A stretch of DNA of 46,036 nucleotides. Source: a virus. The stretch lies in IMG/VR virus record IMGVR_UViG_3300042566_000392, positions 1-46,036 of that record. The stretch is one strand, 5' to 3'. Numbering within the stretch: position 1 is the stretch's first letter; the number at the start of each line of letters is the position of its first letter. Made by a program: the position numbers and the translations under genes. The notes below the pieces were generated by a model. That model was not told where the DNA came from. It made no database searches and worked only from the letters and a program-made list of their open reading frames with translations. Below, in pieces: positions 23,322 through 37,827 of the stretch.

Positions 23322-23440
23322 GGTATTGCAAGGCCCGTTTCATGTGAAACATTTAGACACGCCGAGTCAGGGCCTTGCAATAGTCAGACCTAGGAAGTAA
23401 CTTCTGAATCCCACACACACAGAAGCGAGACGGATTCTTC
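23322..23440. promoter_or_regulatory. Divergent early/late control region with inverted motif pair
   Basis: The gap between terminase (minus) and the nuclease gene (plus) contains TATTGCAAGGCCC (23324-23336) and its exact inverted copy GGGCCTTGCAATA (23370-23382). A good plus-strand promoter overlaps the second copy: TTGCAA at 23375-23380, 17 bases, TAACTT at 23398-23403. A TTTCATGTGAAA palindrome (23338-23349) lies between the copies. This is the probable switch between early and late transcription. Confidence 0.65.
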
Positions 23441-24286: not shown

Positions 24287-24314
24287 TAACTAACCAACAA
24301 TCAAGGAGAACACC

Positions 24315-24740
24315 ATGTCCATTTGGGACAACGCAGAAATGCAGATCAGCTCGGACTACATCAAGTTCGAGAACCCCGGCGACACCGTCACCGGCACCGT
24401 CACCAACATCGGGATCCACCGCTGGGACGACGGAACCGTCAGCCCGCAAATCACCCTCGACGTCGACGGCGAAACGAAGACCGTCACCGCAGGCCAGGTC
24501 GGGCTCAAGGCACTCCTCGCAGAGAAGCGCCCCGAGGTTGGCGAAACCCTCACCGTCACCTTCACCGGCATCGAGAAGCGCGCCGGCGGCAAGACGCTGA
24601 AGAAGTGGACCGTCGACGTCGAGCGCGCCGATGAGGTCGCCGAGGTCGAGGCAAAGCCCGCCAAGAAGGCAGCAGCCAAGAGCGAGCACACCCCCGAGCA
24701 GATCGAGGCAGCAAAGCTCCTCGGCATCGAACTCGACTAA
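24315..24740 (+). CDS. Putative single-stranded DNA-binding (OB-fold-like) protein
   Basis: A 141-aa protein with a clear AAGGAG before ATG 24315. The first 100 residues look like a five-stranded beta barrel (GDTVTGTVTNIG, PQITLDVDGETKTV, GETLTVTFTGIEKR, KTLKKWTVDVER). They are followed by a Lys/Ala-rich linker and an acidic end (GIELD), as in many phage ssDNA-binding proteins. Its place between an exonuclease and a primase-helicase supports the role. The family was not identified with certainty. Confidence 0.6.
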   Translation: MSIWDNAEMQISSDYIKFENPGDTVTGTVTNIGIHRWDDGTVSPQITLDVDGETKTVTAGQVGLKALLAEKRPEVGETLTVTFTGIEKRAGGKTLKKWTVDVERADEVAEVEAKPAKKAAAKSEHTPEQIEAAKLLGIELD

Positions 24741-24746
24741 CCCCAA

Positions 24747-24791
24747 GTGCCCTGTCAGGTGCGATAGCAAGTCCCGTACCTGACAGGGCAC
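24747..24791 (+). terminator. 14-bp perfect hairpin with the recurrent motif in its loop
   Basis: GTGCCCTGTCAGGT and ACCTGACAGGGCAC form a perfect stem. The 17-base loop contains the main part of the motif copy ATAGCAAGTCCCGTA (24764-24778), whose last base begins the right arm. It lies between two early genes. No T-run follows the stem. It could be a terminator, an RNA signal, or a cruciform presenting the motif. Confidence 0.6.
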
Positions 24792-24817
24792 ACCCATCTC
24801 ACACACAAAGGAGCACC

Positions 24818-25018
24818 GTGCTAGACCCCCGAAACCCCATCCCGCTCGGACGACCACTCGACATCACCGTCTCCGACCCGTGGGAGCCAGGCACCATCAC
24901 CTTCAACGCCAGCATCATCGTCATCACCTCGACGATGATCGTCTGCCTGGAGAACGACGAATTCGTCGCCTACCCGCTGCACCGCATTGTCGCCATCAAC
25001 TGGCTCGCAATGCCATGA
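24818..25018 (+). CDS. Small early protein (66 aa)
   Basis: GTG 24818 is preceded by AAAGGAG. The stop overlaps the primase start (ATGA), so the two are coupled. The product is beta-rich with a hydrophobic middle (FNASIIVITSTMIVCLEND) that looks more like a strand pair than a membrane helix. It resembles a small beta-barrel domain. It may be a replication accessory factor, from context only. Confidence 0.6.
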   Translation: MLDPRNPIPLGRPLDITVSDPWEPGTITFNASIIVITSTMIVCLENDEFVAYPLHRIVAINWLAMP

Positions 25019-27165
25019 CCAACCCGTACGCCGCCTGGAAGCGGTACCACGAAGCCGGCTGGACAGGGATCCTTCCCCTGCCCCACCGCAAGAAGCACCC
25101 CGTCCCCGAAGGAACCACAGGACGCGAAGGCAAAGACCCTTCCTACGCAGACATGATGACCTGGGGCGACGACGGCAACCGCAACATCGCCCTACGGATG
25201 CCCACCACTGTCATCGGCATTGACGTCGACCACTACGGCGACAAGCGTGGCGGCGACACAATCGAGAAACTGGAAACCGAACTCGGGAAACTACCCCCCA
25301 CCTGGAAAAGCGGATCACGCCAAGGCACCCCAGGGATCTACTACTACACAATCCCCGACGGCTACCTCGCCATCAGTCAACTGACCGACGTCGAAATGAT
25401 CCAGCACCACCACCGCTACTCCGTCGTATGGCCGTCCGAAAACCCCAGCGACAGCCTCAACGTCTACCAGTGGACAAATCCCGACGGTGAACTATCCGAC
25501 GAAGTCCCAAGCCCAGGCGACTTCCCGCCACTGCCAACCGCGTGGCGAATGCGGCTCATACGAAGCAACGAACTCGCCACCAAGGAAAACGTAGCGCCCA
25601 CCAAGGCGCTGTCCATCATGGCCGAATTCCCCGAAGGTGACCCCTGCAAGCACATCCTTGCCGGCGCATCCAAAGTCTTCGGGCCAGGAGCGAAACACGA
25701 GCTATACAACGAAGCCGTCCTCGCCATCTGCGGCGCCGGCAGGAAAGGCTGCCCAGGCGCAAAGAACGCCCTAAGCGCCCTGCGGGAAAACTTCATGGCC
25801 GTCATGAGCACCGGCCCCAACCCTCGCACCGCTGGCGAAGCCAGCAACGAATGGAACCGAAGCATCCTCGGCGCCATCGGCATGGTCGTCAAAGACCCGC
25901 AAGGCACACGGTGCGTGGACGACGTCATCTCCGAATGGATGGACCACCTGGAAAAAGAACCCGCCCCAGCACTTGAAGCTGGGGCGATCGACACAGCCAC
26001 CACCGACGATCAACCACCCGCCATCACCAAGCTCAACATCGACAACGACGCCTACCTGATGGAACAAGCGACCGCCCGCTTCCTCGACCTTCTCGTCAAC
26101 GACAAAGCCAAAACCCTGTTCAACACACACAAGCTAGGAGAAATCCCCGCCATGACCGGCATCAAACTCGACGAATTCCTGAAAGAAGCAGACGAAGAAG
26201 ACCGCTGGCGCATCGAAGGGCTCTGGCCATCAGGAGGCCGGACCTTCTTCGCCGCAGCAGCCAAAGCCGGCAAAACCACCATGGTCGTCGGCAACGTCAT
26301 CCCCGCCATCGTCGATGGCCACAAGTTCCTCGACGAATTCGTCACCCAACCACTCAAAGGCACACTCGCCTACCTCAACATGGAAGTCAGCAAAGGCACC
26401 CTCCGCATCTGGATGCGCGAAATAGGGATCCAAAACATGAACAAAGTTGTCGTCTCCAACATGCGATCCAAAGCCGGCAACCTCGCCCTATCCACCCCAG
26501 ACGGACGCCAGCGACTAGGTACTTGGTTCGCCGAAAACAACGTCGAAGTCGCCATCCTCGACCCACTGGCACCAGTCCTCGCCAGCCTCGGCCTCGACGA
26601 AAACTCCAACACCGACGTCGCCACCTTCTTCTCCTGGTGGTCCGAAGCCCTAGACCTTGGCGGCGTCACCGACGACCTCATCGTCCACCACACCGGCCAC
26701 GCAGGACAACGATCACGAGGCGCCTCCCGACTCCTCGACGAGCCAGACGCCATCTGGACACTCAACAGAGGCGAAGACACCGACCCAGACAGCGACAACC
26801 CCTACGGCGCCTCCGCAGTCCGCACCTTCCACGCCTACGGCCGCGACGTAGACCTCGACCCGCAAATCCTCACCTACGACCCCAACATCAGGCGGCTCAG
26901 CCTCGGAGGCAGCCCCAAGCTTGTCGCCAAGCACACCGCCACCACCGTCATCACCAAGCACCTCGCAGACCGACGCGAACACAGCGAAAAAGACGTCATA
27001 GAGGCAGTCAAGAAAAACCCCCTAGCCAGCACTGTCGACGCCAAAGCACTCATCCAAGAACTCATCAACAACAACACCCTTCGCAGTAACTACACCAAGA
27101 CGGGCCGAAACCTCATGCTCGCCATCGGCCTCACCGTCGCCGCCACCGAACTGGAGACCACATGA
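25015..27165 (+). CDS. Bifunctional primase-polymerase / RecA-like helicase
   Basis: 716 aa from ATG 25015. The N-terminal prim-pol domain (about 1-190) shows GIDVDHYG with the metal-binding Asp pair, and HHRYSVVWPS with a conserved His. A middle helical part follows. The C-terminal RecA/RepA-like ATPase (about 385-640) has Walker A AAAKAGKTTMV and Walker B VEVAILDPLAPV, followed by HHTGHAGQRSRGASR, typical of hexameric replicative helicases. It primes and unwinds phage DNA; polymerase is presumably supplied by the host, since none is encoded. A putative origin with DnaA boxes lies about 600 bases downstream. Confidence 0.87.
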   Translation: MTNPYAAWKRYHEAGWTGILPLPHRKKHPVPEGTTGREGKDPSYADMMTWGDDGNRNIALRMPTTVIGIDVDHYGDKRGGDTIEKLETELGKLPPTWKSGSRQGTPGIYYYTIPDGYLAISQLTDVEMIQHHHRYSVVWPSENPSDSLNVYQWTNPDGELSDEVPSPGDFPPLPTAWRMRLIRSNELATKENVAPTKALSIMAEFPEGDPCKHILAGASKVFGPGAKHELYNEAVLAICGAGRKGCPGAKNALSALRENFMAVMSTGPNPRTAGEASNEWNRSILGAIGMVVKDPQGTRCVDDVISEWMDHLEKEPAPALEAGAIDTATTDDQPPAITKLNIDNDAYLMEQATARFLDLLVNDKAKTLFNTHKLGEIPAMTGIKLDEFLKEADEEDRWRIEGLWPSGGRTFFAAAAKAGKTTMVVGNVIPAIVDGHKFLDEFVTQPLKGTLAYLNMEVSKGTLRIWMREIGIQNMNKVVVSNMRSKAGNLALSTPDGRQRLGTWFAENNVEVAILDPLAPVLASLGLDENSNTDVATFFSWWSEALDLGGVTDDLIVHHTGHAGQRSRGASRLLDEPDAIWTLNRGEDTDPDSDNPYGASAVRTFHAYGRDVDLDPQILTYDPNIRRLSLGGSPKLVAKHTATTVITKHLADRREHSEKDVIEAVKKNPLASTVDAKALIQELINNNTLRSNYTKTGRNLMLAIGLTVAATELETT

Positions 27166-27710
27166 ACACCTACGCGGAAGACGTCATCGAGCACCTGAGG
27201 AAGAAGAGCGTCGGGGTCACCAGACTCATCAACCTCCGAGACAGCCACGGGTACAGCAAGAGGCGAGCCCTCTACGTCATCAACGAACTCGTCGCCTACG
27301 ACTGCATAGAAAAATTCCCCTTCGGGAACGTCGCCCTGTACAAAGTCACCCACCCCGACGATGTAAGCCTGGCGCAGGCCGAGAAAGCCGCCGAAGCCGA
27401 CGAGAAGAAACGCGACGAAGCCAAGTCACAGAAGGCCAAGGAACGCAAGCCACGCGACCACAAGCCGGTCGTCGACAAGATCATCGACGGCGACGAGGTC
27501 AGCACTGGCGCCAGCACCCCACTCGCCTACGCAGCCATCCTCAACGCCTACCCCAAGCTAGAAGGCGCCAGCGGCGCACTCCAAGCCCTCGTCGACATCG
27601 GCCACGAAGCAGCACCCCTATTAGCCAAAGCGACAGTGGCCGCGATTATCTGGCGAATGATGGAACGCGGCGTCATCAAAATCGACATCAGTGAAACGCG
27701 AACCACATAA
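27162..27710 (+). CDS. Winged-helix-like protein, possible replication or regulatory partner
   Basis: A 182-aa protein whose ATG overlaps the primase stop. The first 65 residues (AEDVIEHLRKKSVGVTRLI, GYSKRRALYVINELV) look like a winged helix that binds DNA. A highly charged Lys/Glu helix (about 70-105) links it to a C-terminal helical domain (PLAYAAILNAYPKL, LLAKATVAAIIWRMM). It ends directly before a strong terminator and the DnaA-box region, so it may bind the origin. That is inference; no family name can be given. Confidence 0.62.
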   Translation: MNTYAEDVIEHLRKKSVGVTRLINLRDSHGYSKRRALYVINELVAYDCIEKFPFGNVALYKVTHPDDVSLAQAEKAAEADEKKRDEAKSQKAKERKPRDHKPVVDKIIDGDEVSTGASTPLAYAAILNAYPKLEGASGALQALVDIGHEAAPLLAKATVAAIIWRMMERGVIKIDISETRTT

Positions 27711-27713
27711 CCC

Positions 27714-27744
27714 GAAGGCCCTCGTCACCACGACGAGGGCCTTC
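27714..27744 (+). terminator. Terminator after the replication operon
   Basis: GAAGGCCCTCGTC and GACGAGGGCCTTC form a perfect 13-bp stem with a 5-base loop, four bases after the stop of the 27162-27710 gene. It is followed by AAATTAT rather than a T-run. Confidence 0.75.
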
Positions 27745-28046
27745 AAATTATCCACAAAGTTATCCACAAAGAAAGAAAGAAAAAGAACCAAAAAGAAAGA
27801 AAGAAAGTGGCTCAGGCTCGTAGTCGGCGGCTGTGGCAAAGAGACCCCCGCGTCTCGGACTCAGCGGCGGAACGTCAGCGAGCCTGATCCTATCCACACT
27901 GTCAAGGTCTTGTCAACACTATTTGCAAACAGGACTGACAATGACATTCTCGATAACAACGACAAACGTTCGAGCTCAGGCCATGGAGCAGAGCTCCATG
28001 CCCCCCGCTCTCACTTAATCAAGACAACAGCACTGAGGACACCACC
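27745..28046. other. Putative replication origin with two DnaA boxes and a purine-rich tract
   Basis: TTATCCACA, the classic DnaA-box sequence, occurs at 27748-27756 and 27760-27768 as part of a 12-base direct repeat (TTATCCACAAAG). It is followed by an AT-rich GAAA-repeat tract to about 27808. A third partial match, TATCCACA, lies near 27891. An inverted repeat CATGGAGC / GCTCCATG is at 27982-28000. The stretch is noticeably AT-richer than its surroundings and directly follows the primase-helicase operon. No convincing gene was seen here. Confidence 0.55.
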
Positions 28047-28388
28047 ATGAGCATCAGAAAAGCGACACCACTGACATGCTGGCAATGCCGCAGCGACATC
28101 ATGATCGGCCTTGACGCTGACATGTGTGGCATCGACGCCAGAGTCGACCCTTGGCCCGTGACCCATCGAGGCGAACTCCTTGCAGCCCTCAGCGGGAAAA
28201 AAACCTACGAACTGGACATCCGAGGGCACCTTCACCGCCGAGGTCGATGGCGACTGAGAAAACCGGCGAAGACGGTAATGGCGGAGCATCGGTGTGAGGA
28301 GCCGCTGGAGAAGGCGTGGCTGGATCTAAGTCCCTGTACGCCCCCTGCGGGGGCCAGGGGTGACGATGACGACGTAGCGCCGTTCTGA
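28047..28388 (+). CDS. Small Cys-containing early protein (113 aa)
   Basis: ATG 28047, with a weak GAGGA-type ribosome site. The protein carries CWQC near the N-terminus, MCGIDARVDPWPVTHRGE, LHRRGRWRLR and a late AEHRCEEP. That layout fits a conserved small zinc-binding protein of unknown function in many actinophages; the match is from memory. The C-terminus is low-complexity and acidic (GARGDDDDVAPF). It stands alone after the putative origin. Confidence 0.65.
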   Translation: MSIRKATPLTCWQCRSDIMIGLDADMCGIDARVDPWPVTHRGELLAALSGKKTYELDIRGHLHRRGRWRLRKPAKTVMAEHRCEEPLEKAWLDLSPCTPPAGARGDDDDVAPF

Positions 28389-28872
28389 GAGCCAACTAGG
28401 CGACGGCTTCTGGGCATCTATCCCAAAGGTGGGACATTTCCGGCGAGGTATATGTATATCTACGGTTCACTTCGTTAAAACCCCCCGGTCGCCCGCGCCC
28501 GCGCCTGGCCGAGGCCCCCGCCTGCCCCCCCGCCTCATGCCCTCGCCCTCACTCCTGCGACTCCCGCACAAGTCTGAGCAATGGCCGGGGCCCGAGCTGT
28601 CGATATATGTCATGGCCGGCCCGCCTCGGCGCGTACATGCCCCCGACGTCGGCCCGCGCAGGCCGAGGCCCGAGGGATGACCACGCCTCGACTAGTCATA
28701 AAGGACTAGAGCCCCGACCACCTGCCCCCCTAATGTGACGAGCCTCACACCGGAACCCCCCTTAATGGTCGTTGACACGGGAACCGACGTGAGGGACCAT
28801 CCGTCGAAGGCTTTGCAAGAGCCTTACCGAGGCCCCCTACCAGGGTCACGGACCCAACCCGAAAGGATCGAC
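28389..28872. other. 484-base gap: C-rich, structured, no convincing gene
   Basis: This stretch holds runs of C on the plus strand (G-runs on the minus strand, possible G-quadruplexes) around 28480-28540. A short TATATGTATAT element lies near 28452. An inverted repeat CTAGTC / GACTAG is at 28692-28709, and a small hairpin AAGGCT / AGCCTT at about 28808-28826 encloses a motif-like TTGCAAG. The gene at 28873 follows. Candidate promoter, non-coding RNA or packaging/initiation signal; nothing decisive. An open frame at 28429-28680 is Pro/Arg-rich and looks like a composition artefact. Confidence 0.4.
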
Positions 28873-29106
28873 ATGTCACGCAAACATTTTCAGTCTCTCG
28901 CCACGGCCCTAGGCCTCCAGCTCCGCTACGCCGCCGACGTCTCATGGGAGACGGGGCAAGGTTTCCTCCTCGCTGTCGAGGCAATCGAGCGCGACCTCGA
29001 CGCGCAGTCGGCAACCTTTCGCCGCGACACGTTCCATGAATGGGTGATGGACACGGCGACAGGCCGCCGGGATGCCGAGGGCAAGCTTGTGAAGGTCAGC
29101 GCATGA
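28873..29106 (+). CDS. Small early protein (77 aa)
   Basis: ATG 28873 with GAAAGGA at five bases, inside the conserved start-associated sequence CCAACCCGAAAGGA. The product is helical (SRKHFQSLATALGLQLRYA; LLAVEAIERDLDAQSATF) and ends KLVKVSA. Its stop overlaps the next start as GCATGAG, the first of several similar junctions in this region. It resembles small phage early proteins of unknown function. Confidence 0.65.
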   Translation: MSRKHFQSLATALGLQLRYAADVSWETGQGFLLAVEAIERDLDAQSATFRRDTFHEWVMDTATGRRDAEGKLVKVSA

Positions 29107-29375
29107 GCGGCGACCGCCCTCGCGCCGCTCGGGCGTTGCGTCGCCCTGACGGGGCGTTCTCGATCGTCCTCGCCGACGGCTGGCACATTCCCGCCGCCTC
29201 GATCGTCGAGGCGCATCGAATCCTTAGGGACCTCCAGGCGGGCGCGCCCGTTCCCCTGTCGGGCAGTTCGTGGCCGACGTCGGGCCGAGGCCAGGCCCAG
29301 GCCCTCGACTGCCCCGAGATGCCACACCCTGACCCCTCGCGCCTCGTCGGCGCCGAGTCGGTCGCCTTGTTCTGA
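29103..29375 (+). CDS. Small early protein (90 aa)
   Basis: ATG 29103 overlaps the stop of the upstream gene (ATGA). The sequence starts MSGDRPRAARALRRPDG with a basic N-terminus. A beta-like middle (AFSIVLADGWHIPAASIVEA) and helix (HRILRDLQAG) follow, then a Pro/Ser-rich tail. No family recognised. A strong hairpin at 29384-29413 follows immediately. Confidence 0.6.
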   Translation: MSGDRPRAARALRRPDGAFSIVLADGWHIPAASIVEAHRILRDLQAGAPVPLSGSSWPTSGRGQAQALDCPEMPHPDPSRLVGAESVALF

Positions 29376-29383
29376 CCCTCTGA

Positions 29384-29474
29384 GAGGCCACGAGATCCCC
29401 CTCTCGTGGCCTCGACTGGTGGCCCGACCAAGCCTCCTGCACGACCCCCAACCGATCGAAAGGAAGTACCCCGC
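29384..29474 (+). repeat. Early-gene cassette spacer 1 (hairpin plus start-associated sequence)
   Basis: Perfect 12-bp stem GAGGCCACGAGA / TCTCGTGGCCTC at 29384-29413, then CGACTGGTGGCCCGACC and CCAACCGATCGAAAGGA before ATG 29475. The same order of elements recurs at 30306, 30710, 31163 and 32082. Confidence 0.65.
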
Positions 29475-29834
29475 ATGACATACGTCGCCCTTGGTGCTCA
29501 CACTTGGCAGCGCGCCGAGTCTGAAGCCGAAGCCCTTGCCGGACTCATCAGGAACGGCGGCCGCGCCCCGTTCCTGATCGTTCGCATCGACGACGCATGG
29601 ATCGATCCCCGTGTCGATCAGCTAGGCCGAGTATGGGCCGATCGTGGCCCCGTTCTGGCTGCCCTGTACAAGGCCGACCCGTTGACTCTCGCGACCGTCG
29701 AGCCGTACGTCATCGCCGAAGCCTGGAGCCTCGCGCGCCGAGGTGGCAAGCGTCAGCATCTCGACCCCGTGACGCTCCAGCCGTACGCCCCGCGTTCGAT
29801 CCTCGCAGTCGAGGCCGAGCAGGTGTCGGCATGA
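29475..29834 (+). CDS. Early protein (119 aa)
   Basis: ATG 29475, ten bases after GAAAGGA. The sequence has an alpha/beta look (TYVALGAHTWQRAESEAEAL; FLIVRIDDAWIDPRVDQLG; VLAALYKADPLTLATVE) and ends EAEQVSA. The stop overlaps the next start as GTGTCGGCATGAGC. I do not recognise it. No Cys or membrane segment. Confidence 0.6.
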   Translation: MTYVALGAHTWQRAESEAEALAGLIRNGGRAPFLIVRIDDAWIDPRVDQLGRVWADRGPVLAALYKADPLTLATVEPYVIAEAWSLARRGGKRQHLDPVTLQPYAPRSILAVEAEQVSA

Positions 29835-30160
29835 GCGCCGGGATCCACGGCGAGCGCGTGGCCCGTGGTCGCTCGTTCCTCGCGCAATACGCCGAGGCCG
29901 ATGGCGGCTCGCTGAACGATCCCGACGCTTGGATGCACGCCAGCGCAGCGATCGCGGACATTCTGCACGCCCTCGACTTCCTCGCCGCTGACGGTTCGGA
30001 ACTCGGCAACGAGTACCAAGGCGACGTCGAGCGCGTCCTGAACCTCGCGCGGATGCACTACGAGGAGGAGCGCGAGAGCGTGGCCGAGCGTGCGTCGGTG
30101 GAGTCGTTCCGCTGGATCGTGTCGCCCGAGCAGGCGCAGGCGAGCGGGGCGACGGCATGA
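29831..30160 (+). CDS. Early protein (109 aa), mainly helical
   Basis: ATG 29831 overlaps the previous stop. The product is strongly acidic and helical (AIADILHALDFLAADG; DVERVLNLARMHYEEERE) and ends QASGATA. It probably forms a small helical bundle. Its stop again overlaps the next start (GGCATGAG). Function unknown. Confidence 0.6.
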   Translation: MSAGIHGERVARGRSFLAQYAEADGGSLNDPDAWMHASAAIADILHALDFLAADGSELGNEYQGDVERVLNLARMHYEEERESVAERASVESFRWIVSPEQAQASGATA

Positions 30161-30297
30161 GTCCGCGCCGCATGGGGCAGGCCCCGCGCCTCGTTCTCAC
30201 TCGGCGCGGCTACACCGTCGCCGGGGTCGCGTTCGCTTTTGCACTGGTCGGCGCCACAGCCCTCGTTGAGGGTCTCGGCACGATCCTCGCCTCCTGA
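30157..30297 (+). CDS. 46-aa single-pass membrane protein
   Basis: A short gene read from sequence: ATG 30157 (overlapping the previous stop) to TGA 30295-30297. A basic N-terminus (MSPRRMGQAPRLVLTRRG) is followed by one hydrophobic helix at about residues 20-43 (AGVAFAFALVGATALVEGLG). The positive-inside rule puts the N-terminus in the cytoplasm. It may alter the host membrane early in infection, for example in superinfection exclusion; this is a guess. Confidence 0.6.
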   Translation: MSPRRMGQAPRLVLTRRGYTVAGVAFAFALVGATALVEGLGTILAS

Positions 30298-30305
30298 CTG
30301 CCTGA

Positions 30306-30385
30306 GAGGGCACGGACCTAGCGCCGTGTCCTCGACTGGCCGCCAGACCTAGCGACCAGCACCACCCCAACCCGAGAGGACCTAC
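30306..30385 (+). repeat. Early-gene cassette spacer 2
   Basis: Hairpin GAGGGCACGG / CCGTGTCCTC (30306-30333, one G-U pair), then CGACTGGCCGCCAGACC and CCCCAACCCGAGAGGA before ATG 30386. Confidence 0.65.
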
Positions 30386-30700
30386 ATGACCACCGTGACC
30401 GAACCCAGCGCCAACCTCGTCCTTCAACTAGTCGCCGAATGGCTCGGCAAGGCTGACGGGATGGAAGGCCCCGCGCCAACTGGCAGGGAGGCCGCTTTTC
30501 AGGGCCTTGGACCACAACTGAACCTGGGCTGGGACTGGCCCAGCAGTGGGCCGACTCCCACTGTCCTACTGGAAGGCGGCGGCCACTACGAGTGGGCTCT
30601 CGACTGCTGCTCGTGGGTCCAAGAACAACTGAACGCTCGCAAGGTTCCCGTGTACGTCGAGCCATACGCAGGCTACGCGCTCTGCATCTACCCCGTCTGA
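30386..30700 (+). CDS. Early protein (104 aa)
   Basis: ATG 30386, five bases after GAGAGGA. The protein contains LVLQLVAEWLGKADG, then a Pro/Gly-rich part, and a C-terminal region with YEWALDCCSWVQEQLNARKV and YVEPYAGYALCIYPV. Three Cys residues could have a structural role. No known family. It is a cassette-type gene with its own spacer on both sides. Confidence 0.6.
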   Translation: MTTVTEPSANLVLQLVAEWLGKADGMEGPAPTGREAAFQGLGPQLNLGWDWPSSGPTPTVLLEGGGHYEWALDCCSWVQEQLNARKVPVYVEPYAGYALCIYPV

Positions 30701-30709
30701 CCGCTTGCA

Positions 30710-30790
30710 GGCGCCACGAGATCCCCCTTTCGTGGCGCCGACTGGCCGCCAGACCAGCGACCTACCCCAACCCGAAAGGAAATGCCAAGA
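30710..30790 (+). repeat. Early-gene cassette spacer 3
   Basis: Perfect 10-bp stem GGCGCCACGA / TCGTGGCGCC (30710-30739), then CGACTGGCCGCCAGACC and CCCCAACCCGAAAGGA before ATG 30791. The central CGACTGGCCGCCAGACC is identical to spacer 2. Confidence 0.68.
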
Positions 30791-31108
30791 ATGAACACAC
30801 TCACCCCCACCATGCCCCGCTGGGTCATTGATGCCGGACACGCCTGGCTAGTCGTCGAGCTTGCTGACTACCCCCACGCCCTCAACTTCGGGACGGGATA
30901 CGGCTACATGGATGATTCACGGATCTACCTAGAGGAAGACGTCGAGGCTGTCGCCTTTCTGGAGATGCATCCCGAGATCCTTTCGCGCCACCTCGATTCC
31001 TGTCATTACGACGGCGACGCCCCATGCCGCAGGCTGAAGGCAAACGAGGCCATCCTCGACGCCGAGCGATTCTGGGCAGCACGCCGAGCCCACTACGCCA
31101 ACGCCTGA
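30791..31108 (+). CDS. Early protein (105 aa)
   Basis: ATG 30791 is preferred over ATG 30782, which is too close to GAAAGGA. An aromatic alpha/beta N-terminal part (WVIDAGHAWLVVELADYPH; GYGYMDDSRIYLEED) precedes a helical C-terminus with CHYDGDAPCRRLKANEAIL. That could be a small Zn site if joined by the His residues nearby. Function unknown. Confidence 0.58.
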   Translation: MNTLTPTMPRWVIDAGHAWLVVELADYPHALNFGTGYGYMDDSRIYLEEDVEAVAFLEMHPEILSRHLDSCHYDGDAPCRRLKANEAILDAERFWAARRAHYANA

Positions 31109-31125
31109 CCCGCGTGTCGGTCCCC

Positions 31126-31153
31126 TTGATTGCAAGGCCCTGACCCGTATCCT
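31126..31153 (+). promoter_or_regulatory. Candidate promoter containing a recurrent motif copy
   Basis: TTGATT (31126-31131) and TATCCT (31148-31153) are 16 bases apart. The motif ATTGCAAGGCCCTGA (31129-31143) overlaps the -35. It points at the 31249 gene and the downstream early block. Confidence 0.5.
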
Positions 31154-31162
31154 GGACACCCT

Positions 31163-31248
31163 GCCGACGTCGCCTCGCCTCTTGTGGCGTCGGCGGGGGA
31201 TCGAGGACACGACCAGCCCTCGACTACACCCAACCGAAAGGAATGACT
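31163..31248 (+). repeat. Early-gene cassette spacer 4 (variant)
   Basis: Hairpin with outer stem GCCGACG / CGTCGGC (31163-31194) and inner CC/GG after a bulge. It is followed by CGAGGACACGACCAGCC and CCCAACCGAAAGGA before the start. It is less regular than the other spacers and is preceded by a promoter. Confidence 0.55.
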
Positions 31249-31635
31249 GTGAATATCGAACCCCGCAAGACCGTAATCAACAAGCCTGCGCGCTCGTTCG
31301 AGACCACTTGGGATCTGTCATGCGATCTGTTGTCCGAGGACGGCAGCATGACTCCGATTCTTCAGGTCCGCACCGCTTACGCGAAGGACTACCGCGAATA
31401 CACGTCGACCGCCTACTACATGGAGGAGGGTGAACGCTTCACCGTGTGGGCGTCGGGCTGGCCGTCGGTCACGATCTACCGCGTGCGTGGCGTGCAGCGT
31501 TACTCGTTCCGTGAGCTTGAAGGTATGCACCGTGATGCCTTGTTCGCGCTGATGGACAAGCCTGTCAGCGAGGGCGTGTTGCGCCGCACCGTGCTCGATG
31601 CCTTGGTTTATGCCCCGGTCACGGTGTCGGCATGA
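31249..31635 (+). CDS. Early protein (128 aa)
   Basis: GTG 31249 is six bases after AAAGGA; the in-frame ATG at 31243 touches the SD and is less likely. The protein has a beta-rich core (FETTWDLSCDLLSEDG; VTIYRVRGVQRYSFRELEG) and ends YAPVTVSA. The stop overlaps the next start as GGTGTCGGCATGAGC. No family recognised. Confidence 0.6.
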   Translation: MNIEPRKTVINKPARSFETTWDLSCDLLSEDGSMTPILQVRTAYAKDYREYTSTAYYMEEGERFTVWASGWPSVTIYRVRGVQRYSFRELEGMHRDALFALMDKPVSEGVLRRTVLDALVYAPVTVSA

Positions 31636-31835
31636 GCGCGCTATACGAAGTTTCTTTCACGATGGATTACGCGACCATAATCGTCGGCATCGAGCACGAG
31701 AACGACAACGAGACCGAGATCATCTCTGCCGCTGACACTCTCATTCGTGAGGACCTTGGCCTCACCTACTCAGTGACGGATCGCGCGACCGACATCCGAG
31801 TCGAGTACCAGCACACAGTCGAGGTGTCGGCATGA
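31632..31835 (+). CDS. Early protein (67 aa)
   Basis: ATG 31632 overlaps the previous stop. A compact alpha/beta sequence (ALYEVSFTMDYATIIVGIEH; ADTLIREDLGL) ends EVSA, again at a GTGTCGGCATGAGC junction. Acidic. Function unknown. Confidence 0.58.
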   Translation: MSALYEVSFTMDYATIIVGIEHENDNETEIISAADTLIREDLGLTYSVTDRATDIRVEYQHTVEVSA

Positions 31836-32071
31836 GCCACGGCCTGCCCCTCACATGGGACCACACCACCAGCGCCGGAACTGGCACGCACGCTGGCTCG
31901 TGGATTCTCGTTCACACATACGAGGACGGGACCGTTCACATTGGACCGTTCACCACGGAGGGCGAGGCCATGACGTTTATGAACGACTGGCCCGACGACG
32001 AAGACATGACTGATGACCCGTTCATTGCACCGTTGAATTCCCCTCAGAACGTCGGCGCCGTAAAGACCTGA
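31832..32071 (+). CDS. Early protein (79 aa)
   Basis: ATG 31832 overlaps the previous stop. It contains GSWILVHTYEDGTVHIGPF, a beta-hairpin-like segment, then an acidic helix (EAMTFMNDWPDDEDMTDD). It could be a small DNA-mimic-like acidic protein, but this is only composition. It is followed by spacer 5. Confidence 0.58.
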   Translation: MSHGLPLTWDHTTSAGTGTHAGSWILVHTYEDGTVHIGPFTTEGEAMTFMNDWPDDEDMTDDPFIAPLNSPQNVGAVKT

Positions 32072-32081
32072 CCCCTGGACA

Positions 32082-32168
32082 GGCGGCCACGGTTTCCTCC
32101 CGTTCCCGTGGCCGCCGATCGAGGACTCAGACCACCCTCGCAAACCCAACCAGAAAGGAGATCCCGCA
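32082..32168 (+). repeat. Early-gene cassette spacer 5
   Basis: Perfect 11-bp stem GGCGGCCACGG / CCGTGGCCGCC (32082-32116), then CGAGGACTCAGACC and CCCAACCAGAAAGGA before ATG 32169. The stem shares the GGC-CACG core with spacers 1-3. Confidence 0.65.
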
Positions 32169-32636
32169 ATGGGACTCGACCAATATCTGCGCGTCAGCGC
32201 CGAACTGAGCACTGGCGACAAGATGAGCGCCGCTGAAGAATTAGCACTCAAAGCCACCGGCCTCGACGCTATGCCTTCCATGCGATTTTGCCCCGCAAGG
32301 ATCGAAAGGCAAGTGTTCGCGTGGCGCAAGGACTACCGAGTGCAGTCCTGGATCGAAGGCCTGTACGGCGCACGCGAATCCATTGACAAGACGTACCTCT
32401 CGTTCGCCGAACTCGACCGACTCATCCTCGACATGCAGGCGTGCATCACCGACCCGTCAAAGCTCGATGAGTTGTTCCCCTTCACTAATGGCTGGGACTG
32501 GTGCGGCCCCGAGGAAGCCGACGCAGAGCGCGACAGTTCGATCGGTGGATTCATCGAAGCGTTGCCTGCACTGACCGAGATCCGCTCGGCCTACAACTCG
32601 TACGCCATGACCATCACCTACTCGGCGAGTTGGTGA
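32169..32636 (+). CDS. MGLDQYL-type early protein (155 aa)
   Basis: ATG 32169, nine bases after AAAGGAG. The N-terminus MGLDQYLRVSAELS matches a small phage protein type often starting MGLD-YL, of unknown function. Helices (AAEELALKATGLDAMPS; FAELDRLILDMQACI) alternate with FCPARIERQVFAWRK and GWDWCGPEEADAE. No catalytic motif was identified. It is followed by a translationally coupled neighbour. Confidence 0.62.
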   Translation: MGLDQYLRVSAELSTGDKMSAAEELALKATGLDAMPSMRFCPARIERQVFAWRKDYRVQSWIEGLYGARESIDKTYLSFAELDRLILDMQACITDPSKLDELFPFTNGWDWCGPEEADAERDSSIGGFIEALPALTEIRSAYNSYAMTITYSASW

Positions 32637-32974
32637 CCGAGATGGCTGAACTCACCTACCTCAAGCCCGAGGACGTATTGCCCGAAGGCTGGCAAAGCGA
32701 GGACGAAGGCTTCGTGGTGTCTGACTACATCTGCGAGCACACCTGGCTGGAGGCCCGTTACGACGACAAGGCCGACGAGCCGTACTGGTGGTCGGAGTTG
32801 TGGCTCACGCCCGACAAGTGCGAAGGCGAAACCCACAACGAGGGCTACGACGTCTGGGGCGACACCGCTCACGAAGTCATCGAGGCCATCGGCCCACTGA
32901 AAGAACTCAATCCCATGGAGTTCTGCCACTACTGCTCAGGCCGCTGGCCACTACCCGAAAAGGAAGAAGAATGA
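32633..32974 (+). CDS. Early acidic protein (113 aa)
   Basis: GTG 32633 overlaps the previous stop (GTGA); ATG 32642 is the alternative. The product is very acidic and Trp-rich (EDVLPEGWQSEDEGFVVSD; EPYWWSELWLTPDKCEGE) with a C-terminal FCHYCSGRW, a CxxC-like motif with a His. It could bind zinc or mimic DNA. Function unknown. Confidence 0.58.
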   Translation: MTEMAELTYLKPEDVLPEGWQSEDEGFVVSDYICEHTWLEARYDDKADEPYWWSELWLTPDKCEGETHNEGYDVWGDTAHEVIEAIGPLKELNPMEFCHYCSGRWPLPEKEEE

Positions 32975-33327
32975 ACATCGCCATCACACACTTAGGCAAC
33001 TACGCGCCCTCGATCATGCCGTCCGCCGGCGGCTACGAGATCGACGGCCAGGTCACCATCGACGGCATCACCTACCGATTCTCCGCATCGACATTCGACA
33101 CGGAGTCATACTCGGGCGGCCTCGACTTGACCCTCTACACGATCGGCGAGGACGACGAGGTGTCCGGCGAGGTCGAGTGGGATGAAGACACCGACCCCGA
33201 CTGGGATGAAGTCGAGGAGCGCATGATCGAGCTTTGCGAAGAAGTCGATGCCGCGATCTACGGCGAGATGCTGCACGCGAAGGATCGTGCGCTCGCCCAC
33301 TACCGCCTGAAGATGGCGAGCGCCTGA
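32971..33327 (+). CDS. Early acidic protein (118 aa)
   Basis: ATG 32971 follows AAAAGGAAG and overlaps the previous stop. A beta-rich N-terminus (GYEIDGQVTIDGITYRFSAS) is followed by a very acidic middle (EDDEVSGEVEWDEDTDPDWD) and helical C-terminus ending MASA. Function unknown. The next gene starts on its last stop base (TGATG). Confidence 0.58.
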   Translation: MNIAITHLGNYAPSIMPSAGGYEIDGQVTIDGITYRFSASTFDTESYSGGLDLTLYTIGEDDEVSGEVEWDEDTDPDWDEVEERMIELCEEVDAAIYGEMLHAKDRALAHYRLKMASA

Positions 33328-33566
33328 TGCTTGACGTTCTCGCAGCAGAAAACCGCATCCTCACCATCATCACGGGGATCATCCTCGGCGGCGTCGCTCT
33401 CATCATGCTCGGGCTCAAGACCTACTGCGGCATTGCTGTCGCTCGTGCTCGTCGCCCATTCATGAAGGAAGCCCAGGAGCGTTATCTCGCTGGGCTCCGT
33501 GAGCAAAACACCAGTAATAGCAAGCCTTTTACCCCCAACCCCACGCAAAAGGAGAACCAAGAATGA
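33327..33566 (+). CDS. Single-pass membrane protein (79 aa)
   Basis: ATG 33327 shares its A with the upstream stop. A hydrophobic helix at about residues 10-30 (ILTIITGIILGGVALIMLGL) is followed by a basic cytoplasmic-type tail (ARARRPFMKEAQERY). The C-terminus (NSKPFTPNPTQKENQE) overlaps a weak motif copy (AATAGCAAGCC) and the SD of the next gene. Membrane role unknown. Confidence 0.62.
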   Translation: MLDVLAAENRILTIITGIILGGVALIMLGLKTYCGIAVARARRPFMKEAQERYLAGLREQNTSNSKPFTPNPTQKENQE

Positions 33567-34507
33567 CAATCCAACTAAACAAGACTCATGCCGACCGCGC
33601 CTACGGCGTGCTCGCCAGCGTCCCGACCGGCAGCGATCTCGTCGGCGCCCTCAGTGCAGGCGATCTACTCTGGTCAGTCGAGGGCCTGCCGATCTCGGCG
33701 TACCGCAACGGCGACAACTTTGCCCTGCCTGGCTACCAGTGCGTCTCTCGCATCACCCCGTATGACGATCCGATCCCGCTCGGCATCGTGTCCAAGTCCT
33801 ACGAGGTGATCCAGAACATCGACGCCTTTGCCCCGCTGGAGCAACTGCGCCTCGATGGCCGACTGTCCTACGCGCAGGCTGGCGGCACCAAGCTTGGCGC
33901 GCGTGTGTTTGTTCTCTGTGATCTCGCCGAGGGCACGACGATCACTGGCGAAGATCCGCACGTTCGGCGCCTGATTGCCACTACCGCGCACGATGGCAGT
34001 GGCAGCTTGAGGTTGATCCCCATGCTGGAGCGTGTCTACTGCACTAACGCATTGACCATGGTCGGCAAGTTCCGCAAGGCGATCATCTCGATCAAGCACG
34101 ACCGCCTCGCCGCCGGCAGAGTGCTCGATCTCAACACGTCGCTCACCAAGTCACTGCTTTCTCTCGCCGAAATGGAGCGCGAGTACGAGGCACTGATGTC
34201 CACGACAGTTCACGGCGGCGACGTCGAGGTGTTCCTCGCAGAGCTTTTCCCTCGGCGCGGCCAGTCGGCCACCGATCGGATGCGCGACACCGTCGTGAGG
34301 AACCGTAACGATGTGCGGAGTATCTACAACGGCCAGACCGGCACGCAGGCGAACCTGCATGGCACTGCCGCTGGCCTTCTCAATGCCGCGACGGAGTGGG
34401 AGCAGCATTTCCATGGCAAGAGCGCTGAGCGTCGCTCTGCTCGACTACTGGAGGGTCGCAGCGATCAGTTCATGGACCGCGCCTGGTATCTGGCTGGTGC
34501 CCTGTGA
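33563..34507 (+). CDS. DUF932 / TIGR03299-like protein
   Basis: A 314-aa protein with ATG 33563, AAAAGGAG before it. The sequence (SYEVIQNIDAFAPLEQL; VFVLCDLAEGTTITGEDPH; RVYCTNALTMVGK) matches the DUF932 phage/plasmid protein family. Its members often sit near replication or recombination genes and have no settled biochemical function. It lies at the end of the early operon, coupled to the next gene. Confidence 0.8.
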   Translation: MTIQLNKTHADRAYGVLASVPTGSDLVGALSAGDLLWSVEGLPISAYRNGDNFALPGYQCVSRITPYDDPIPLGIVSKSYEVIQNIDAFAPLEQLRLDGRLSYAQAGGTKLGARVFVLCDLAEGTTITGEDPHVRRLIATTAHDGSGSLRLIPMLERVYCTNALTMVGKFRKAIISIKHDRLAAGRVLDLNTSLTKSLLSLAEMEREYEALMSTTVHGGDVEVFLAELFPRRGQSATDRMRDTVVRNRNDVRSIYNGQTGTQANLHGTAAGLLNAATEWEQHFHGKSAERRSARLLEGRSDQFMDRAWYLAGAL

Positions 34508-35034
34508 GTAAGAAGAAGGCGAAGGGTGGCCAGTACGAGGACATGGAAGTGTTCGACGAGTTGCCACCGCCACCGCCCCGCAGACCGGGGACTGGTACTC
34601 GGCGCGTCCATTACAAGGTGTCGGGCGCTGTCGCCCGAGCCCTCGTGGTGGCTCAGGTCAGCCCGAAGTGGAGAAAGTTGGCGCACTACGCCAGCGATCA
34701 GGATGCTCGCCGCGCAGCACACAAGTTACGAAACTCGCGTGTGTGGTGCAGCCTCGGTGTACTGGAGACCGCGTACCGGCCAATGGTGGAGGGCGACCTC
34801 GACGGCGGCTGGCACCTGTTCGTCCGCTACACGAGCGTCAAGCTGAGTGAGCACGACATCGCCATGAACCTGGCTCGCAAACCCGACGAGGCAGCCGAGG
34901 CCCTGTATGGCGACGCCCTCGACGGCGATGCAATAAATGTCGTTACTGGTGCCTCAATGCAAGCCACGGACCCAAGTGATGGTTTAGACTCCGAGGATCA
35001 AACCATAACCGAGGCGGTAACTGGATTGGTATGA
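34504..35034 (+). CDS. Early protein (176 aa), Lys/Pro-rich N-terminus
   Basis: GTG 34504 overlaps the DUF932 stop. Residues 1-30 are basic and Pro-rich (SKKKAKGGQY, PPPPPRRPG). The middle (GAVARALVVAQVSPKW; DARRAAHKLRNSRVWCSLG) looks like a small DNA-binding-type fold, and the C-terminus is acidic. It ends the early operon, followed by a terminator. Function unknown. Confidence 0.6.
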   Translation: MSKKKAKGGQYEDMEVFDELPPPPPRRPGTGTRRVHYKVSGAVARALVVAQVSPKWRKLAHYASDQDARRAAHKLRNSRVWCSLGVLETAYRPMVEGDLDGGWHLFVRYTSVKLSEHDIAMNLARKPDEAAEALYGDALDGDAINVVTGASMQATDPSDGLDSEDQTITEAVTGLV

Positions 35035-35052
35035 GCGTGGGGAAGCGCTCAC

Positions 35053-35088
35053 GTCGGCCCTCCTGGCCCCCCGTACAGGAGGGCCGAC
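35053..35088 (+). terminator. Terminator ending the early operon
   Basis: GTCGGCCCTCCTG and CAGGAGGGCCGAC form a perfect 13-bp stem followed by CCCTTTATA. It lies 18 bases after the last early stop. Confidence 0.72.
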
Positions 35089-35197
35089 CCCTTTATACTG
35101 AAGACTCCATGGCAGTGGCGCCTAGCGCCCCCTTTCATGGTTGGGAGGCTGAAGTCGGGCTGGGATTGGTACCCCAGCATCAACTGATCGAAGCCAA

Positions 35198-35235
35198 GAC
35201 GAAGCCCCCGCTGGTTATCCGGCGGGGGCTTCGTC
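35198..35235. terminator. Bidirectional terminator between convergent blocks
   Basis: GACGAAGCCCCCGC and GCGGGGGCTTCGTC form a perfect 14-bp stem with a 10-base loop, facing the plus-strand early genes and the minus-strand block ending at 35251. Frames through this hairpin were not counted as genes. Confidence 0.72.
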
Positions 35236-35250
35236 GTTAGCGGGGATAGT

Positions 35251-35340
35251 TCACGGTTTGATGAACAAGAACGTCACGGCGCTGACGACCGCGATCCAGG
35301 CAACGGAAAACGCAAGCAAGAGGAGCGCATATCTGGTCAT
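35251..35340 (-). CDS. 29-aa membrane peptide
   Basis: ATG 35340 overlaps the previous stop (ATGA) and has GGAGA upstream. The product is almost entirely one hydrophobic helix (TRYALLLLAFSVAWIAVVSA) with a short C-terminal tail. It is probably a single-pass membrane micropeptide. It could be an antiholin-like or exclusion factor; no evidence beyond topology. Confidence 0.5.
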   Translation of the reverse strand: MTRYALLLLAFSVAWIAVVSAVTFLFIKP

Positions 35341-35684
35341 CTTGGGTCTCCATGGCCGGCGTCGCGCAGAAGCTCGACGTACTGCTCCAGCCTGAGGATG
35401 ACAGGCCAGTCGCCGATAGTGGCAGGGCCTTGGCCGTCGAGACGCAGCACAGCCCACGCGAGGACGCCGAACGCAGCGCGCTCCGCTTGCTGCTTCATGG
35501 CGGCGGCAGGGTTGAATCCCCGACGAGCCTTGACCTCGATGTCGTGGCCGACGACGCCAGTGACGTCGGTTCCCGACCGGCCTGCACCAGTGGACTCGGC
35601 GTAGGGGAATCCGTTGGCCGCCAGGTAGTCGGCGACGATGCGTTGCGTCGCGTAGCCACGATGTTTACGAGACTGGCTAGGCAC
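35337..35684 (-). CDS. Holliday-junction-resolvase-like PD-(D/E)XK nuclease
   Basis: 115 aa from GTG 35684, overlapping the upstream stop. SRKHRGYATQRIVADYLAAN, then GRSGTD (D40) and HDIEVKARRG (E50 and K52), give the PD-(D/E)XK active site. The sequence resembles the short resolvase-like proteins common in actinophages. The C-terminus has a WPVILRLEQYV strand. It likely resolves branched DNA in replication or packaging, or processes recombination intermediates. It is unusual that it lies in the minus-strand block beside the integrase and not with the replication genes. Confidence 0.78.
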   Translation of the reverse strand: MPSQSRKHRGYATQRIVADYLAANGFPYAESTGAGRSGTDVTGVVGHDIEVKARRGFNPAAAMKQQAERAAFGVLAWAVLRLDGQGPATIGDWPVILRLEQYVELLRDAGHGDPR

Positions 35685-35892
35685 CCGCCCTCCCGTCGGC
35701 GAGACCGAGGTCATAGTTGCGCTGTTCGATGCCAGGCAGGTTGGCCTTCCAAATGTTGTTGAACTTCTCCAGCTCTTCACCCCGAGCGAGTCGAAGGTGA
35801 TAGCAGTACAGGCAACGATCCTCAGTAACCATCGAGTCGTTGGCCCTGGGACATTGCCGGTCGTGGCCGTCTGGCCTGTTGGTGTCGCTCAT
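35677..35892 (-). CDS. Small Cys-rich protein (71 aa)
   Basis: ATG 35892 overlaps the upstream stop (ATGA). DRQCPRAND...EDRCLYCYHL gives three Cys with nearby His, a likely zinc site. The rest is helical (ARGEELEKFNNIWKANL). Small Zn proteins are typical of this block. Function unknown. Confidence 0.6.
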   Translation of the reverse strand: MSDTNRPDGHDRQCPRANDSMVTEDRCLYCYHLRLARGEELEKFNNIWKANLPGIEQRNYDLGLADGRAGA

Positions 35893-36059
35893 GCCGCTGC
35901 CTCCTTCTCTCGACGTCTTGCTTGCTTCCGCGCTTCGTTCTGCCTGTCACGCCTGGGCCTGGATTCGGCTGACTGCGCCGCCAGTAGGACACGGTGATCG
36001 CAGTCAGGGCATGACAGTGGGTCGGTGTGGATCAGTTCACAGGTGGCGCACTGGATCAT
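35889..36059 (-). CDS. 56-aa Cys4 zinc-finger-like protein
   Basis: A short gene read from sequence: ATG 36059 to TGA 35889. The N-terminus MIQCATCELIH...SCPDCDH has a CxxC-CxxC pair, and the C-terminus is a long basic helix (RPRRDRQNEARKQARRRE). This combination of zinc ribbon and basic helix could bind nucleic acid. Both ends overlap neighbours by ATGA, which supports it as real. Confidence 0.62.
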   Translation of the reverse strand: MIQCATCELIHTDPLSCPDCDHRVLLAAQSAESRPRRDRQNEARKQARRREKEAAA

Positions 36060-36220
36060 GCGCGCCAGCCACTCGTTCTAGCGCGGGCGCCCTTCTCTTT
36101 GATTACGCACTGGCGACAGTCCCGTGCCCCACCAAGGCGATAGATGTAGGCGTCAGGCTCGGCCAGCGAGTGACCCGCCAGGCAGTGAGTGAAGGGGCTG
36201 GCGTTAGTCGACGTTGACAT
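36056..36220 (-). CDS. 54-aa HNH-like/CxxC zinc protein
   Basis: A short gene read from sequence: ATG 36220 to TGA 36056. The pattern HCLAGHSLAEPDAYIY...RDCRQC is the zinc-binding pattern of many small phage proteins related to HNH endonuclease zinc ribbons, but no nuclease core follows. Start and stop both overlap neighbouring genes, giving a tightly packed operon. Confidence 0.62.
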   Translation of the reverse strand: MSTSTNASPFTHCLAGHSLAEPDAYIYRLGGARDCRQCVIKEKGARARTSGWRA

Positions 36221-36419
36221 CGGCCTTCAGCCCCTTCACTGTGACGCCACCTTCGCTCGGCTCGACGTCGCCATTGAGAACGCACAGCAGGAACGTCGTC
36301 AGGATCTCGGTGTCGTCGGGCAGGTTGTACTTCTCGATCTCGGCAAGAAACACCCGCACGTCGGCGAGGGTTGCCGCTTCGAGCCCGATAGTGATGCTGG
36401 CGTTCGTCTTGATGGTCAT
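36204..36419 (-). CDS. Small protein (71 aa)
   Basis: ATG 36419. The product (TIKTNASITIGLEAATLADVR; YNLPDDTEILTTFLLCVL) has a beta-strand start and helix, with acidic surface. It is followed by the zinc gene starting within it. No family recognised; the operon position is the only context. Confidence 0.55.
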   Translation of the reverse strand: MTIKTNASITIGLEAATLADVRVFLAEIEKYNLPDDTEILTTFLLCVLNGDVEPSEGGVTVKGLKADVNVD

Positions 36420-36538
36420 TTACTTTCCTTTGCGAATAGTGCGTTTTCGAGTTCGCGGATGCGAGCCTCGGCTTTCATGAGTTCAAGTTCCAGGCGCCGG
36501 ATGCGCACCAGGTGGTAGTCGCTGGCCGAGTTGTTCAT
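36416..36538 (-). CDS. 40-aa coiled-coil peptide
   Basis: ATG 36538 shares a base with the previous stop. The peptide MNNSASDYHLVRIRRLELE continues as a heptad-like helix (MKAEARIRELENALF). It probably dimerises. It could regulate a partner protein; function unknown. Confidence 0.5.
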   Translation of the reverse strand: MNNSASDYHLVRIRRLELELMKAEARIRELENALFAKESK

Positions 36539-37086
36539 CACGGCACCAACTTCTGGCAGGAGGAACCACGCAACGTCCAGTGATGCCACGCGCCGTCGGA
36601 GATGACTTCGGCGAAAGCAATGCGCTGGTACATGGCTGGGTACTTCTCGATCTTCTTGATGTCCCACAAGAAGGCGCGCAGTGTGTCTGCCTGACGCTTG
36701 GTCGCACCAAACTTCTGGATCCGCTCGGCCACGATGTAGGGCAGACCGTGGCGCCATGCCGGCATGAACTGGAATAGACCGGCGGCTCCGCTGCCACGAT
36801 TGACGGCGTTCACTCGGCCTCGTGACTCTCGGCGCTCGACACACTTGGCGAATGATTGCCAGCGGGGGGGGACTGCTGCGGCTTTGGTGAAGATTGCCGC
36901 CGTGCGTTGCGCCTCACGGGACTGACCAGTATTGGTCTGTGGAGTCGACGTGCGAGGGACGACAAGATTCTCGCTGCTTGCTGCGACGGTGATCGCATTA
37001 GCGGCCACTGTCGGGGGTAGCCAGGCCGGTGCCTGGGTCGGGGTCATCATCAAGCTGACTGTCAGTAGTAGTCCGATCACGTTCAT
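36538..37086 (-). CDS. Secreted lytic-transglycosylase-like protein (182 aa)
   Basis: An N-terminal signal-like segment (VIGLLLTVSLMMTPTQA) is followed by a linker. The lysozyme-fold motif CVERRESRGRVNAVN...GAAGLFQFMPAWRHG then follows, in which a Glu of ERRES is the probable catalytic residue. The fold resembles Rpf/soluble transglycosylases. ATG 37086 is used; GTG 37080 has better SD spacing. It is separate from the lysis genes and overlaps the upstream gene by 89 bases. An early or lysogenic exported wall enzyme or exclusion factor is possible. Confidence 0.66.
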   Translation of the reverse strand: MNVIGLLLTVSLMMTPTQAPAWLPPTVAANAITVAASSENLVVPRTSTPQTNTGQSREAQRTAAIFTKAAAVPPRWQSFAKCVERRESRGRVNAVNRGSGAAGLFQFMPAWRHGLPYIVAERIQKFGATKRQADTLRAFLWDIKKIEKYPAMYQRIAFAEVISDGAWHHWTLRGSSCQKLVP

Positions 37087-37387
37087 CCTTTTCGAGAAGG
37101 TTCACCGCGCTGTCTTCAGCGGTGCTGGATACGCGCCAGATGCGACCTTCGGCGGTCGCCTGCGCTATGACTGGGAACAAGACGGCGGCATACTCCCTGC
37201 CCTGGCATGTCTCGCATGAACAGAACGGGTAGCCAGAGGGCGACTCGGGGTAATCCATGTCGTCGCTGTCTTCTGCCTCCTGGTGCTCCCAGAAGAATTC
37301 CTGAAGGCGAGTGATGGCAGCGTTGATCTCCTGATCGACACTGGCGTCGCACGCCCAGTCAGAAAGACTTGTCAGAGTATTGGCCAT
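36998..37387 (-). CDS. Early/lysogeny-block protein (129 aa)
   Basis: ATG 37387 with AGGAG, placed about 15 bases after the motif at 37404-37418. The product has an N-terminal helix (VDQEINAAITRLQEFFW), an acidic segment, and FCSCETCQGREYAAV with three Cys, a likely metal site. The C-terminus is polar and disordered, and overlaps the transglycosylase gene. Function unknown. Confidence 0.6.
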   Translation of the reverse strand: MANTLTSLSDWACDASVDQEINAAITRLQEFFWEHQEAEDSDDMDYPESPSGYPFCSCETCQGREYAAVLFPVIAQATAEGRIWRVSSTAEDSAVNLLEKDERDRTTTDSQLDDDPDPGTGLATPDSGR

Positions 37388-37403
37388 GGCTCTCCTATTC
37401 CGA

Positions 37404-37418
37404 TACGGGACTTGCTAT
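37404..37418 (-). promoter_or_regulatory. Copy of the 15-bp recurrent motif
   Basis: ATAGCAAGTCCCGTA on the minus strand, running into TATCGG, ahead of the 37387 gene start. It would overlap a possible -10 box. Confidence 0.6.
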
Positions 37419-37438
37419 TGGGGAATGGGAAAGCACGC

Positions 37439-37642
37439 TTATCGCGTGAATTCCATGCCTGTTCTGGCGAGGGTGAAGTCTTCCCACTGGCGGTTCAGGC
37501 TGGTGAAGCCGAGGCTGGCCGCCTGGTCGAGGACTGGGGTGATGTCGTAGTCAGAGGTGAAGAGGACGACGAGCCGGTCGCTGCTGTCAATGAAAGCAGT
37601 GGCTTCGGAGTCGTCCCGTAACACAGTCGGTGAGCTTTGCAT
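37439..37642 (-). CDS. Small protein (67 aa)
   Basis: ATG 37642 (MQSSPTVLRDDSE) is chosen; ATG 37660 and a GTG at 37720 are in frame. No SD is seen. TACATT lies six bases before ATG 37642, so the message may be leaderless. The product (AFIDSSDRLVVLFTSDYDITPVLDQ) resembles a thioredoxin-like or ACT-like strand-helix pattern, without a family match. Function unknown. Confidence 0.5.
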   Translation of the reverse strand: MQSSPTVLRDDSEATAFIDSSDRLVVLFTSDYDITPVLDQAASLGFTSLNRQWEDFTLARTGMEFTR

Positions 37643-37827
37643 GGGACAAATGTAGGTCATTGACTGGTCAGTGTCTGTACCGACACGCGGTACTGGCCTT
37701 TCAATACAGAACTTGCACACAAAGAACCCCCGCGTTAGCCATTAGTTGTGTATACCTGGATAAAGGACGTTACGTCACGGATTTTCAGATGTACATACCT
37801 AAAGTCCAAATGTCCCTTGCTTTAATG

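Follow-up and report, generated by a model that had tools for sequence, protein, structure and literature searches.

The window, the whole stretch of DNA analyzed here, is the complete IMG/VR record IMGVR_UViG_3300042566_000392, a 46-kb linear virus record of 46,036 nt. The structural genes on its minus strand include those for a terminase large subunit and for a protein of tape-measure size; its plus strand encodes a Cas4-like exonuclease, a primase-polymerase/AAA protein, a DUF932 protein, and an integrase. The protein relatives of the window belong to Streptomyces, Gordonia, Arthrobacter, Mycobacterium, and Rhodococcus phages, which makes an actinobacterial host likely. Nucleotide searches with the window, both near and distant, against phages and plasmids returned no relevant match, relatives sought through the DUF932 protein, the primase, and g32169 were not found in viral contigs, and a terminase search of genome contigs retrieved no relative. 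A minus-strand ORF (3600-4457) holds repeats in 9-nt steps (GGACCAGCA-like) at 3788-4364, for which a collagen-type reading is suggested. On the plus strand, an array of small genes is punctuated by a repeated intergenic cassette, whose copies are listed here as gaps A to F (H1, strong hairpin; H2, second small hairpin).

28807..28872, plus strand: gap A, an incomplete copy, with a weak hairpin at 28807-28825, a second hairpin at 28827-28851 (loop CCTACCA), the leader CCAACCCGAAAGGA at 28854-28867, and the start ATG at 28873
29376..29474, plus strand: gap B, with H1 at 29384-29413 (12 bp), a possible H2 at 29418-29437, CCAACC at 29448-29453, the Shine-Dalgarno sequence GAAAGGA at 29458-29464, and the start ATG at 29475
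30298..30385, plus strand: gap C, with H1 at 30306-30333 (10 bp), H2 at 30336-30359, CCAACCCGAGAGGA at 30367-30380, and ATG at 30386
30701..30790, plus strand: gap D, with H1 at 30710-30739 (12 bp), a possible H2 at 30744-30762, CCAACCCGAAAGGA at 30767-30780, and ATG at 30791
31109..31248, plus strand: gap E, with, 5' of H1, promoter-like TTGATT (31126-31131) and TATCCT (31148-31153) and operator-like ATTGCAAGGCCC (31129-31140); then H1 at 31159-31198 (15 bp), H2 at 31201-31223, the leader CCCAACCGAAAGGA at 31229-31242, and the start GTG at 31249 (or ATG at 31243)
32072..32168, plus strand: gap F, with H1 at 32082-32116 (11 bp), a possible H2 at 32120-32140 (by eye), CCAACCAGAAAGGA at 32146-32159, and ATG at 32169
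29475..32071, plus strand: the small-gene array punctuated by the cassettes
29475-29834, 29831-30160, and 30157-30297, plus strand: gene group after gap B
30386-30700 and 30791-31108, plus strand: single genes after gaps C and D, respectively
31249-31635, 31632-31835, and 31832-32071, plus strand: gene group after gap E

Gaps B to F follow one order: stop codon, H1, spacer, CCAACC, a GAAAGGA-like Shine-Dalgarno sequence, and start codon. A descriptor of this order (a hairpin of ≥9 pairs and ≤ -15 kcal/mol, followed by 20 to 60 nt, CCAACC before a Shine-Dalgarno-like GRRAGGA, and a start codon) matched exactly five sites in the window, namely gaps B to F, all on the plus strand (29384-32169). 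The expectation was 0.017 matches per second-order Markov window, with a maximum of 1 among 60 random windows, and the same descriptor had no matches in the other loci compared. An earlier note on this DNA had claimed at least five gaps with a shared order, and these counts bear it out. Its description of the sequence held in part: the proposed GGC-CACG core of the stems is present in B, D, and F and loosely in C, while E, the fourth gap, lacks CCACG, and the CGACTGG..GACC spacer occurs in B, C, and D only, with GATCGAGGAC..GACCA instead common to E and F. Aligned without gaps over 51 nt, B, C, and D are mutually 61 to 78% alike. The repeated element is real, non-random, and structured.

H1 lies at a nearly constant distance from the next start (about 50 to 61 nt in all five gaps), whereas the stop precedes it by 8 to 10 nt in B, C, D, and F but by 50 nt in E, where the promoter-like and operator-like stretch intervenes. 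Thus, the cassette goes with the downstream start and gene. No homology was found among the proteins encoded downstream of the cassettes, which rules out gene duplication as the origin of the repeats. In Mycobacterium phage Jeon, the homologue of g30386 is joined by an overlap, with no spacer of this kind. Genes inside a group overlap at ATGA, and groups are separated by cassettes; the array therefore has two standard junction types, coupled and separated. An identical 14-mer, GTGTCGGCATGAGC, is present at three overlapping junctions (29823, 31624, and 31824), where it gives unrelated proteins the same VSA C terminus.

The H1 hairpins of B to F fold at -17.6 to -28.4 kcal/mol, each more strongly than 300/300 dinucleotide shuffles of its own gap; the main hairpin of gap A performs no better than shuffles (151/300). 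Since MAFFT misaligned the stems, H1 was aligned by hand for B, C, D, and F (E was not alignable). In this alignment, all pair columns stay paired and none is broken; three columns have changed on both sides, F carries one paired insertion, and loop length ranges between 6 and 13 nt. The stem pairs therefore covary among these copies. Because the arms covary and the loop length varies, the data point to a folded RNA rather than a DNA operator. Together with the near-constant distance to the start and the unrelated downstream genes, the covarying stems also suit the earlier label of a repeated start-associated element and are compatible with the proposal that it could insulate genes or set their expression. 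Most gaps can also form a smaller second hairpin that encloses a GACCA-like loop. Its combined shuffle test gave a p of about 4e-5, a value obtained with a motif picked from the same copies, of which B, C, and D are related; taken gap by gap, H2 is unsupported by the shuffle test in F and weakly supported in D and B. We regard this predicted hairpin as suggestive. The leader is predicted to be only moderately accessible (0.44-0.77), and Rfam at gathering score has no match in the whole window, with weak sub-threshold hits only.

Start-associated repeats are known from other actinophages. The cluster K start-associated sequence (SAS), described in 2011, is a 13-bp element, GGGATAGGAGCCC, that precedes many small-gene starts by a few bp, independently of gene family, and about half of its sites carry an imperfect 17-bp inverted repeat (ESAS) whose consensus varies by subcluster (PMC3203893). 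Adephagia ESAS contain SigA-like promoters, and the role of such repeats was still called unclear in 2024 (PMC11373665). The cassettes share with SAS/ESAS a short repeat upstream of small-gene starts, often with an inverted repeat farther upstream, and independence of gene family. H1 provides that inverted repeat in all five gaps, in a different sequence, as a perfect GC-rich hairpin that in four gaps directly follows the stop. The 13-mer GGGATAGGAGCCC is absent from the cassettes, in which the leaders read CCAACCnGAAAGGA, and SigA-like -35/-10 hexamers inside the element are represented by a weak candidate in gap E only. The earlier note saw a likeness to cluster K SAS with a sequence of its own and an added hairpin. 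The likeness is sound for a start-associated repeat with its own sequence; the hairpin is not strictly an addition, given the ESAS inverted repeat, and the comparison fails for promoters, which four of the five cassettes lack.

Gordonia phage CaiB (cluster DR) also has repeated intergenic regions (PMC9302106). These resemble the cassettes as repeated gene leaders with a hairpin adjoining a fixed Shine-Dalgarno sequence, but their sequence is different, some copies have a promoter-like TATAGT, and there is no constant separate post-stop hairpin. Between its small genes, phage Jeon repeats two hairpins (the second being CACCGG..CCGGTG) followed by a fixed leader ahead of the start; its sequence is unrelated, and its first hairpin, unlike H1, overlaps a promoter-like TTGCAT-17-TAGGTT. 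The promoter-like hairpin cassettes of Jeon (L029) recur between small genes at 1633-7475, and no description of them was found in the literature searched. Repetitive extragenic palindromes and the intercistronic hairpins of phage T7, which are thought to stabilize or segment polycistronic mRNA, are likewise intercistronic RNA hairpins, but they are unrelated in sequence and have no tie to a fixed ribosome-binding leader. Hairpins between actinophage genes are as such ordinary, because strong ones were found in 2/15 to 10/18 of the larger gaps examined in six other actinophages.

Promoter calling gave no sigma-70-like promoter for the plus strand from 23000 to 40300, and no -10-like hexamer was found in B, C, D, or F. 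The TTGATT-16-TATCCT of gap E is a weak promoter candidate by eye (8/12 matches), under the promoter-call cutoff. Repeats of the form ATTGCAAGG[C/T] lie at 6767 (-), 23325 (+), 23381 (-), 23448 (+), 31129 (+), and 38455 (-). Four of them occur with ATTGCAAGGCCC; they flank the divergent terminase/exonuclease region, and one is inside gap E. These repeats are probably an operator of a phage regulator. Only 1 or 2 U occur in the 10 nt after H1, and none of B to F was listed on the plus strand as a canonical intrinsic terminator (GC hairpin plus U-rich tract). Two long terminator-like hairpins, around 35054-35096 and 35196-35237, end the plus-strand gene run. With no plus-strand promoter called and 1 or 2 U after the stems, neither an ESAS-type promoter nor a canonical terminator fits the cassettes.

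RNA punctuation with an independent translation start is favored, since expression of the genes behind four cassettes seems to require read-through. Judged from sequence, there is an even chance that the cassette is an RNA punctuation and leader module in a read-through early transcript, with each group translated independently; we infer read-through transcription, mRNA stabilization, and translational insulation. The cassettes would sit within one early transcript read through all groups. The post-stop H1 would close one ATGA-coupled gene group, shield the next unit from upstream ribosomes and upstream sequence, and give processed mRNA a protected end. H2, where formed, and the C/A-rich CCAACC patch would hold the next Shine-Dalgarno sequence unstructured, and this free site would allow each gene group its own translation rate.

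The main rival to the leader module is partial termination, which we consider possible though rather unlikely. Here the H1 hairpins would be partial, U-poor terminators as in actinobacteria, and they would either give graded expression across the array or be overridden by antitermination. GC-rich hairpins of 10 to 15 bp, placed 8 to 10 nt past the stop in four gaps, speak for it, as does the frequency of post-stop hairpins in other actinophages; U-poor terminators are known from Streptomyces, in which 3' ends can be GC-rich hairpins with few U (PMC12207403). However, the 1 or 2 U after the stem fall below the 3 or 4 reported for Streptomyces intrinsic terminators (PMC12207403), what stays nearly constant is the distance to the next start, and the promoter-like site in E precedes the hairpin. 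Because no sigma-70-like promoter lies behind B, C, D, or F, five efficient serial terminators would starve the downstream genes. It is improbable that the cassettes are promoter/operator sites of the ESAS kind, at which transcription starts under repressor control. The missing -10-like hexamers in B, C, D, and F, the lack of any called plus-strand promoter, and covarying arms around a variable loop, unlike a fixed DNA operator, outweigh the SigA-like promoters of cluster K ESAS (PMC11373665), the promoter-like hexamers beside hairpins in the repeated regions of Jeon and CaiB, and the combination in gap E of TTGATT-16-TATCCT with operator-like ATTGCAAGGCCC. We give little credence to recombination joints or recently copied spacers kept for gene swapping, with RNA structure secondary: B, C, and D are 61 to 78% alike over 51 nt beside unrelated neighboring genes, and the 14-mer is common to overlapping junctions too, but paired arm changes are unexpected from mere homology and a swap at a cassette was seen in no relative. 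The earlier note had also proposed that the cassettes provide homology for gene exchange; the unrelated genes behind similar cassettes are at most compatible with this, and no relative carrying the same cassette was retrieved. Least credible are RNase III-type sites such as those that process phage T7 mRNA between early genes, for although H1 forms intercistronic hairpins within an early small-gene array, stems of 10 to 15 bp are shorter than those of typical sites.

The cassette sequence was found nowhere outside the window. Its exact spacer, CGACTGGCCGCCAGACC, had one match in viral contigs, a chance match inside coding sequence, and a search for GACTGG..CCAACCnGAAAGGA gave six matches, all unrelated. 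Distant relatives reached through the terminase, IMG/VR contigs L036, L037, and L039 (L036 and L037 are the same contigs as L020 and L019), have the same layout. The terminase of L036 and L037 is 45% identical to that of the window, and the early genes of all three contigs are preceded serially by stop, hairpin, second hairpin, GAAAGGATGA leader, and ATG (4 to 5 cassettes per contig by descriptor; 7 to 8 in L019/L020 by leader search). They differ from the window in their unrelated sequence, an apical GTCTTAAGAC motif, and lower GC. Orthologous gaps among these contigs show both-side changes in H1 and H2. In L036 and L037, CCTGC has two possible pairing partners, a 5' box GGCGG and, alternatively, GCAGG beside the Shine-Dalgarno sequence, so that the leader could have two states. 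A single spacer of the cassette type occurs in L012, whose terminase is closer, in front of the DUF932 gene; CCTTGATTGCAA is common to gap E and L012, where it also precedes the DUF932 gene. Most other contigs of the terminase family have no serial cassettes. The layout is thus recurrent but sporadic.

Taken together, the cassette is a new variety of the known actinophage start-associated repeats, with covarying stems, near-constant spacing, and mostly promoterless copies. A general phage design is a more doubtful extension: early arrays would be interchangeable translation units with a two-hairpin leader, the architecture kept while the sequence is homogenized within each genome and differs from one genome to the next through replacement; a phage-encoded RNA-binding protein might recognize the leader at the GACCA-like loop. 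The same layout in different sequence in a distant relative, along with covarying stems, near-constant spacing, and few promoters, allows a role as RNA leader to be told apart from one as promoter, a distinction within reach of simple reporters. The cassettes could also be a natural source of insulated ribosome-binding sites for use in high-GC bacteria.
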